Under the pieces are notes generated by a model. The model worked only from the letters and a program-made list of their open reading frames with translations, did no database searches and was not told the DNA's origin. A program made the translations under genes and the position numbers. From Omnitrophica bacterium RIFCSPLOWO2_12_FULL_50_11 (GTDB lineage: Bacteria > Omnitrophota > Omnitrophia > Omnitrophales > Danuiimicrobiaceae): a stretch of DNA of 33,899 nucleotides. Positions 30,076-32,548 of this stretch are shown here, piece by piece; positions within the stretch are counted from its first letter, which is position 1, and each line of letters begins with the position of its first letter. The DNA is taken from the NCBI GenBank assembly GCA_001804315.1, contig MHFT01000060.1:1-33899 (forward strand), in the 5' to 3' direction.

Positions 30076-30933
30076 CTAGGTACAGTACTCAATCAACTTC
30101 GAGATGGTCGTCTTTAAATCTTTTCGCTCTACCACAAGATCAATCATCCCGTGTTCGAGCAAAAATTCTGAAGTTTGAAATTCAGACGGCAATTTCTGCC
30201 GGATCGTCTGCTCAATCACACGCGGCCCCGCAAACCCAACGAGAGCCCGGGGCTCCGCAATGATAAAATCACCCAGAGAAGCAAAACTTGCCATCACTCC
30301 GCCCATCGTTGGATGGGTCAAGACCGACACGTAAGGCAGTCTGGCATGAGAATATCGTGCGAGCGCCGATGCGGTCTTGGCCATCTGCATCAAACTAAGA
30401 GCTCCTTCATACATACGCGCGCCGCCACCGGAGCCTGAAACGATAACAAGCGGCAGCTGACGCGCATGAGCGTGTTCAATGAGTCGTGTCAATTTCTCCC
30501 CGACGACAGACCCCATTGATCCCATAATGAATCGTGAATCGGTAACGCCAAACGCGATCCGCTTCTTGAAACATTCACCCTCCCCTACCACGGCAGCTTC
30601 CTCGAGACCTGTTTTTTCCTGGTCTTGCTTCAACTTGGTCAGATACGGTTTGGCGGCTTTGAAATTGAGCGGATCTTCCGTTTTCAAATTCATACACATT
30701 TCCTTAAAGGTGTCACGGTCGATCAAAAGTTCTACTCTTTCCCGTGCACCGATCACGAAGTGGTAACTACACTTTGGACATACGGATAAATTTTCATGTA
30801 GTGCTTTGGTATACACGACATGCCCGCATGATGGACACTTCGTCCATAAGCCCTCCGGAACACTTTTCTTACGCGGCGTTGTCTCTTCTGCCACCTGCGG
30901 TCGAGAGCCTCTTAAAATCACCCACTTAAGCAA
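30076..30933 (-). CDS. accD: Acetyl-CoA carboxylase carboxyltransferase subunit beta
   Basis: The 285-residue protein has the N-terminal zinc finger Cys33-Cys36 and Cys52-Cys55 (TKCPSC and VCPKC). The carboxyltransferase core has TDSRFIMGSMGSVVGEK, VSGSGGGARMYEGALSLMQM and LTHPTMGGVMASFASLGD. It pairs with AccA, which is not in this window, to make malonyl-CoA for fatty acids. The N-terminus MLK..(about 24 residues)..PEG resembles the B. subtilis protein and supports the TTG start at 30933. No Shine-Dalgarno precedes it, and the codon lies 2 nt past a terminator-like U-tract. Alternatives are GTG 30921 and GTG 30894. Confidence 0.93.
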   Translation of the reverse strand: MLKWVILRGSRPQVAEETTPRKKSVPEGLWTKCPSCGHVVYTKALHENLSVCPKCSYHFVIGARERVELLIDRDTFKEMCMNLKTEDPLNFKAAKPYLTKLKQDQEKTGLEEAAVVGEGECFKKRIAFGVTDSRFIMGSMGSVVGEKLTRLIEHAHARQLPLVIVSGSGGGARMYEGALSLMQMAKTASALARYSHARLPYVSVLTHPTMGGVMASFASLGDFIIAEPRALVGFAGPRVIEQTIRQKLPSEFQTSEFLLEHGMIDLVVERKDLKTTISKLIEYCT

Positions 30934-30935
30934 TC

Positions 30936-30968
30936 AAAAAAAATACCACGCCAGGCTTACTCGTGGTA
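30936..30968 (-). terminator. Intrinsic terminator-like hairpin in the accD leader
   Basis: On the minus strand a 7-bp perfect stem (UACCACG pairing with CGUGGUA, 30962-30968 with 30944-30950) closes an 11-nt loop and is followed by eight U residues (30943-30936). It lies only about 20 nt after the predicted accD transcription start and 2 nt before the predicted accD start codon. No U-tract exists on the plus-strand side, so it acts on leftward transcripts only. Confidence 0.7.
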
Positions 30969-30983
30969 GGGTCTCATAACCAT
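30957..30983 (-). other. Possible 8-codon leader peptide upstream of accD
   Basis: ATG at 30983 opens MVMRPYHE and stops at TAA 30959-30957, inside the terminator loop. Translation would cover the 5' arm of the hairpin. There is no Shine-Dalgarno, so this could be chance. Confidence 0.25.
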
Positions 30984-30993
30984 AAATTTTGTC

Positions 30994-31022
30994 ATTATAA
31001 CGAGAGATTATTAGGTTGTCAA
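30994..31022 (-). promoter_or_regulatory. Perfect-consensus sigma-70 promoter for accD
   Basis: On the minus strand TTGACA (31022-31017) and TATAAT (30999-30994) match the consensus at all twelve bases with the optimal 17-bp spacer. Transcription should start near 30987, about 54 nt before the accD start. Confidence 0.85.
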
Positions 31023-31082
31023 CATCAACGTAACATATTTCAAACGAGGAACTTATAACACATCGACAAACTGAAAACCGCT

Positions 31083-31111
31083 TTGACAATATGCTGAAAC
31101 AGTGATACTCT
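31083..31111 (+). promoter_or_regulatory. Promoter for rpoN, predicting a leaderless mRNA
   Basis: TTGACA (31083-31088) is followed by a 17-bp spacer ending in the extended -10 TGA, then TACTCT (31106-31111). Only six bases separate the -10 from ATG 31118, so the transcript would begin at or next to the start codon. Confidence 0.6.
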
Positions 31112-31117
31112 TTTTTC

Positions 31118-32548
31118 ATGGAACATCGCCTCGCTCAAACGCAAACCCAGAAACTTATTCTCGTACCTCAATTCAGACAATTTCTTACTTTGCTTCAGCT
31201 CCCCGTCTTTGAACTTGAGCAGAAAATAGAGCAAGAGTTAACGCAAAACCCAGTGTTGGAAGAGGTTCCAACAAATGACCAGGAGGAAATCTCGACGGAG
31301 CCAGAGCTCCTTAATGAATCGCCTGCCAAAGAAGATCGAGTCTCCGATACGCTCCAGATGATAGAGTCCTATAATGGAAATCTGAACGACCAGGAATTTT
31401 CGACTGATTTTTCAGAACGAGATCCACTAGAAGCTCAGCGTAAACGTGATTATCAGCAGTCCAGTCTGACGAAACCCCCTACCTTGTCTGACTATCTCGA
31501 ATGGCAACTCGGCATATTAGAACTTTCATCGATGGACAAGACAACCGCTCAAGAAATTATTGGAAACATCAATGACGACGGACGTCTGGTCGCATCTGTC
31601 GAAGAACTGGTACATGCTATTGGACAAGACGCCAAAGAGATAGAAAAAGTACTGACACGTATCCAGTCGTTAGATCCACCCGGCGTTGGCGGAAGATCAC
31701 TCCAAGAAACTTTATTAATTCAGCTTCGAAAACAAGAGGACTCTAACTTAGCTCAGACCATCCTGGAACACCACTTTGACCTCTTTAAGCGAAAGGATTT
31801 CCATGCCTTAGGACGGGCACTCCATACAACGGCCCCCGTTGTCAAAGCTGCCTACGAACAAATTACCCGTCTGGAACCGAAACCAGGGAGAATTTTCTAT
31901 CATGAAAAACCTCAATGCGTTATCCCGGACGCGAAAATCTCTATGGCACCGGACCGCGAAGAGGAATTCACGATTGAAATGAATCAGGAATCAGTGCGAG
32001 AACTTCGAATCAGCCCTATGTATCGTCAAATCCTCAGAAACAAAGGAACGGACAAAAAAACCTTGTCTTTCATCCGCGAGAGGATCCAGTCCGGACTCGA
32101 TCTGATACGCGCCCTTGCCCAGAGGAAAAGCACGATCAGACTGATTACAGAAGAACTTCTGCGCGCACAACTTGATTTTTTCACAAAAGGTTTCTCTCAC
32201 CTGAAACCCTTGAGACTAAAAGACGTGGCTCAGAGAATCAAATTGCATGAGTCGACGGTCAGCCGCGCGATACACGGAAAATATGTCGAAACGCCGCAGG
32301 GCACAATCCCCTACAAAAGCTTCTTTTCCACCAAGCTCGTCAGTGAGAATGGAACCGTAGAGTCGCAGAAAAGTGTGATGGAGGTAGTGAAACGGCTGGT
32401 TGAACATGAAGACAAAGCAAAACCTCTCACTGATGCCAAACTGGTTGAGTTGCTACAAAAAGAGGGAATCAAAATTGCCCGTCGCACCGTTGCCAAATAT
32501 CGCGACGTACTGAAAATTCTGCCTGCACACCTGCGAAAAAAAAGCTAG
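31118..32548 (+). CDS. rpoN: RNA polymerase sigma-54 factor
   Basis: The 476-residue protein has the three RpoN regions. The N-terminal region I is glutamine- and leucine-rich (LAQTQTQKLILVPQFRQFLT, about residues 5-24) and binds activators. An acidic linker follows (about 50-110), then a core-binding domain and HTH (about 385-410, VAQRIKLHESTVSRAI). The RpoN box ARRTVAKYR at 454-462 reads the -24 element. Sigma-54 directs activator-dependent transcription, often of exopolysaccharide, motility or nitrogen genes. No enhancer-binding protein lies in this window. ATG 31118 has no Shine-Dalgarno, consistent with the leaderless promoter. Its stop overlaps the convergent CPBP gene by 4 nt. Confidence 0.95.
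   Translation: MEHRLAQTQTQKLILVPQFRQFLTLLQLPVFELEQKIEQELTQNPVLEEVPTNDQEEISTEPELLNESPAKEDRVSDTLQMIESYNGNLNDQEFSTDFSERDPLEAQRKRDYQQSSLTKPPTLSDYLEWQLGILELSSMDKTTAQEIIGNINDDGRLVASVEELVHAIGQDAKEIEKVLTRIQSLDPPGVGGRSLQETLLIQLRKQEDSNLAQTILEHHFDLFKRKDFHALGRALHTTAPVVKAAYEQITRLEPKPGRIFYHEKPQCVIPDAKISMAPDREEEFTIEMNQESVRELRISPMYRQILRNKGTDKKTLSFIRERIQSGLDLIRALAQRKSTIRLITEELLRAQLDFFTKGFSHLKPLRLKDVAQRIKLHESTVSRAIHGKYVETPQGTIPYKSFFSTKLVSENGTVESQKSVMEVVKRLVEHEDKAKPLTDAKLVELLQKEGIKIARRTVAKYRDVLKILPAHLRKKS

Follow-up and report, generated by a model that had tools for sequence, protein, structure and literature searches.

The accD gene of Omnitrophica bacterium RIFCSPLOWO2_12_FULL_50_11 is likely preceded, in its 5' untranslated region, by a promoter-proximal intrinsic terminator that would serve as an attenuator or set-point for accD. 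In the window, the whole stretch of 33,899 nt of DNA that we analysed, an upstream promoter, a GC-containing hairpin and a U-tract before the gene start all lie on one strand (Table 1), which is how elements of this type are defined. The kind of element is already known; accD as its gene in Omnitrophota is a new case.

Table 1. Features of the accD upstream region in the window
Feature	Position	Strand	Remarks
accD	30076..30933	minus	acetyl-CoA carboxylase carboxyltransferase beta subunit; Zn_ribbon_ACC and Carboxyl_trans domains
Putative terminator hairpin	30944..30968	minus	7-bp stem TACCACG/CGTGGTA, 11-nt loop; covariation; single genome-wide match of model R1
U8 tract (T8 in DNA)	30936..30943	minus	predicted 3' end of a terminated RNA of ~50 nt
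8-codon leader ORF MVMRPYHE	ATG 30983 to TAA 30957	minus	terminates inside the loop; no counterpart conserved
Pre-hairpin leader, ~19 nt	30969..30987	minus	spacing conserved, sequence variable
Sigma-70 promoter, 12/12	30994..31022	minus	TTGACA 31022-31017, 17-nt spacer, TATAAT 30999-30994
rpoN (sigma-54)	31118..32548	plus	divergent, conserved neighbour of accD

Both the consensus sigma-70 promoter and the 7-bp stem with eight Us before accD (30968-30936), as given in the original prediction, were confirmed. The stem arms (30968-30962 and 30950-30944) enclose the loop AGTAAGCCTGG (30961-30951), and the accD transcript is predicted to start near 30987; transcription start sites and start codons are predictions throughout. 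Perfect promoters with spacers of 16-18 nt occur at seven places in the window's genome (2.24 Mb in 107 contigs), as opposed to none for a reversed-pattern control. Another of the seven (L185, G000:C107:17263-17291) drives a LexA-like gene and holds in its spacer a palindrome, GAACGTCCGTTC, as would suit an SOS repressor that controls its own gene.

The best named matches of the encoded AccD are from Candidatus Omnitrophota. The TTG codon at 30933 does sit 2 nt past the U-tract and has no Shine-Dalgarno sequence, as originally described, but its role as the true accD start is uncertain: AccD N-termini vary among relatives, and the frame may instead open at GTG 30921 or GTG 30894. As in the window, almost every locus of the order whose contig extends far enough has rpoN in divergent orientation upstream of accD, and the same divergence is seen outside the order (L030, L146). 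Since rpoN points away and no gene on the same strand points into the hairpin, the hairpin is not the 3' terminator of another gene. A search for a sigma-54 promoter, prompted by the rpoN neighbour, gave no -24/-12 match near accD. Relatives of family f5 share a conserved motif, TTGTAAAG, upstream of the accD -35 element (equivalent window region, 31023-31117), which resembles the -35 element of a divergent rpoN promoter (CTTTACA). The conserved TGTAAAG was considered as an operator and set aside, its opposite strand probably representing that rpoN element. No comparable leader precedes accA or accC in the window's genome, where accA follows another gene and accC an accB-like gene, so a leader common to these genes was rejected.

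Taken alone, the window hairpin is modest. The folding energy of 30987-30934 is -11 kcal/mol (z -1.2) and that of the stem-loop -7.7 kcal/mol, and 69 of 400 dinucleotide-shuffled leaders gave a hairpin that scored at least as high, which is not significant for a single sequence. The case therefore rests on the comparison with relatives. In the sampled parts of this genome (20 stretches, crude gene calls), gene ends do not commonly carry a recognisable intrinsic terminator, as seen from 7 of 31 convergent gaps that have one.

The relatives comprise 47 draft genomes placed in the same order, the publicly titled ones being metagenome assemblies, and accD upstream regions were read at 34 loci. A hairpin with a U-tract lies between the promoter and accD at 16 of them, distributed over three families (f1: L001-L004; f7: L007; f5: L010, L016, L020-L023, L025, L027-L029 and L111). 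All 16 have an 11/12 or 12/12 promoter in the equivalent position and a U-tract after the stem. Between the end of the -10 element and the stem lie 22-28 nt at 13 of the 16 loci and 51, 53 and 131 nt at the remaining three; the distance between predicted start and stem is 16-22 nt, again in 13 of the 16. Even the locus with the longest distance (L025) keeps the hairpin, despite having about 105 bp more promoter-to-stem sequence than most relatives. This extra sequence (G039:C229) appears to be highly self-complementary and possibly represents a small element that was inserted.

Compared with 400 shuffles each, the leaders of L002, L023 and L027 were equalled by none and that of L004 by seven. 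Among 14 aligned sequences, the lower stem CCACG/CGUGG is nearly invariant, and the adjoining pair alternates between A-U, G-U and G-C. Paired cells make up 92.6% of this alignment, three pairs changed on both sides, and the covariation was equalled by none of 500 shuffles. The attenuator layout proposed from the window alone is thus borne out across relatives, with a conserved stem, a conserved U-tract and covarying pairs. The other 18 of the 34 loci have no hairpin, so it is dispensable for accD; at one of them, L005 of family f1, a possible hairpin remnant (CCACGTTAACGTG) is present and the U-tract is absent. Mapped onto an AccD tree, the hairpin requires a minimum of five state changes; shuffles averaged 10.2, and none of 500 went as low. 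In the well-supported clade g14/g18/g21/g28 all nine members carry the hairpin. In other phyla, where 78 of 80 accD loci could be scanned, terminator matches upstream of accD are scattered.

Near-invariant CCACG/CGTGG halves would also fit an operator in the DNA just past the start site, bound by a dimeric regulator, with the U-tract being incidental. However, the spacing of the half-sites differs widely between families, G-U pairs are frequent (7 of 14 sequences at one pair), and the T-tract is always found on one side, all of which renders an operator very unlikely. A further point against it comes from the f7 locus L007, where the stem in the equivalent position, CCCCGCAC/GUGCGGGG, is unrelated in sequence; this argues that selection acts on the hairpin itself.

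The hairpin might instead stabilise the 5' end of the mRNA or aid translation initiation through a U-rich S1-type site, without termination. Family f1 would be compatible with such a role, as its likely start codon comes soon after the U-tract with no clear Shine-Dalgarno sequence, but several f5 loci keep the U-tract even though the likely start is ~40-180 nt past the stem. In addition, the loci without a hairpin have no U-tract at the equivalent place. We consider this explanation decidedly improbable.

The element appears to be specific to accD. The pattern CCACG-loop-CGTGG-T5 is found at one place in the window's genome. A covariance model (R1) was built from the 14 leaders; its top match is accD in all 14 training genomes, whose E-values are good by construction, and in the window's genome (G000) accD is the sole match at E up to 1. 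A generic terminator sequence of the lineage was accordingly rejected. Other R1 matches are weaker; of the two that were inspected, one (L165) is an ordinary terminator at a gene end and the other (L164) a hairpin ahead of pyrR. At the latter locus (L164 1501-1533; G030:C17:32990-33022), the hairpin and a long U-tract immediately precede a pyrR-like and then a pyrB-like gene, which is the layout of a classic pyrimidine attenuator. A known riboswitch or Rfam leader family was also rejected, because the Rfam scan of the window returned only a partial tRNA, with no model matching the accD leader, and those leaders of relatives that were scanned gave no match.

The 8-codon ORF that was reported to end in the loop exists, yet a function as leader ORF is not supported, as the ORF is unique to the window's genome; it probably arose by chance. 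An ATG ORF terminating within the loop is what ribosome-mediated attenuation via a leader peptide would call for, but this ORF has no Shine-Dalgarno sequence and is absent within the family, L002 having no ATG ORF and L004 a 3-codon ORF that ends before the stem. The leaders of relatives share neither an ORF that ends in the hairpin nor a conserved mutually exclusive structure: pairing between the 5' segment and the 5' arm is no better than in shuffles in most leaders, with L027 as the strongest exception. An antiterminator switch is consequently not supported. Given that neither the ORF nor an antiterminator is conserved, control by a translating ribosome is extremely unlikely.

A short terminated RNA is still expected, as originally suggested, but its interpretation as a small RNA has become weaker. 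According to that interpretation, the ~50-nt RNA would act in trans, and accD would be expressed by leak-through as a by-product. The very strong promoter and the U8 tail are in line with this, and Escherichia coli GraL combines the roles of leader and trans-acting small RNA (PMC6829880). On the other hand, loop and pre-stem sequences vary between genera, and loops between families, leaving no conserved seed, and in the window's genome the RNA abuts accD with no room for a second promoter before the TTG. The Hfq profile TIGR02383 gave no match in any genome of the order (0 of 47); controls including E. coli and B. subtilis were positive. An Hfq-dependent small RNA was rejected on the grounds of the undetected Hfq and the non-conserved seed, and any trans-acting small RNA is unlikely.

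According to the preferred reading, a promoter-proximal terminator, RNA polymerase would initiate near 30987 from the consensus promoter; about 20 nt further on, the nascent RNA would fold into the CCACG/CGUGG hairpin, followed by U8, and some transcripts would end at about 50 nt. Only read-through transcripts would encode AccD, as the gap between the U-tract and the reading frame is 2 nt here and the upstream gene is divergent. Read-through thus appears to be the only evident route to accD mRNA in the window's genome, and since AccD would depend on it, the read-through fraction would set, and may regulate, the AccD level. As far as can be judged from sequence, the cell probably sets the amount of AccD by the frequency at which polymerase passes the terminator. 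We infer that termination occurs with some efficiency and that it is modulated. Candidates for this modulation are factors that act generally on RNA polymerase, as with GraL/greA, antitermination by cold-shock proteins, and autoregulation by AccD.

Premature terminators are a common feature of bacterial leaders (PMC2965389, PMC7815308). The closest parallel to the proposed arrangement is GraL of E. coli, which has 19 nt before the terminator and at which about two thirds of greA transcripts are ended, with feedback by GreA plus an unidentified factor and a cis effect that is independent of Hfq (PMC6829880). The accD leader resembles GraL/greA in having a promoter, ~19 nt and an intrinsic terminator before the gene. 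It differs in the gene, no sequence relation is expected, and termination at accD is deduced from sequence. The greA leaders have been suggested to form an antiterminator (PMC2965389), whereas none is conserved in accD leaders. The fabH-leaders (Naville and Gautheret 2010, PMC2965389) are predicted premature terminators before a fatty-acid synthesis gene and resemble the accD leader in that respect, although the gene is a different one; the main texts of PMC2965389 and PMC7815308 make no mention of accD. Our literature search on accD attenuation found nothing relevant.

For E. coli, a review (PMC3896788) reports that AccD binds the mRNAs of accA and accD and controls their translation, and that sequence analysis found no transcriptional regulation of these genes. 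Control of accD through its own mRNA would be common to both organisms, and the zinc ribbon is present in the AccD encoded in the window. The E. coli feedback, however, is translational, in contrast to the leader terminator predicted here.

In E. coli, cold-shock proteins of the CspA family suppress termination at intrinsic terminators (PMC4347634, PMC9765468), and csp genes are present in all 47 genomes of the order. Weak matches of the accD model upstream of csp genes led us to a separate csp leader terminator, which is conserved in many csp genes of the order (L211, G000:C45:9197-9272, minus strand; L213-L249), the csp regions being a sample and not the complete set. Its consensus reads GUAGUAAGCAAAGAGGUAGAACA..UUUGU-ACCGCAAGGU-loop-GCCUUGCGGU-U6. 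A covariance model of this leader (R2) found matches in 27 of the 47 genomes, with E-values down to 1e-14 and most matches just upstream of cold-shock genes; Rfam gave no match for eight csp leader loci. The csp and accD elements differ in sequence and share a common layout. Because many csp genes of the order carry a leader terminator of the same design, antitermination by cold-shock proteins is a testable guess for accD, made by analogy with the E. coli CspA family. An RNA-binding protein, most plausibly a cold-shock protein that has such a leader itself, or else AccD, could relieve the accD terminator and couple lipid synthesis to the cold or growth state; we regard this as a doubtful, if conceivable, proposal.

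The carboxyltransferase of which AccD forms one half commits carbon to fatty acids. A conserved transcriptional brake on accD, if confirmed, would be a second way to set the level of acetyl-CoA carboxylase, in this case in uncultured bacteria that keep the brake at a constant spacing from a promoter of near-consensus sequence. Should the cold-shock proposal prove true, membrane lipid synthesis would be tied to cold or to growth state through antitermination. The element is less than 100 bp long, and hence its effect on accD can be tested in a laboratory host.
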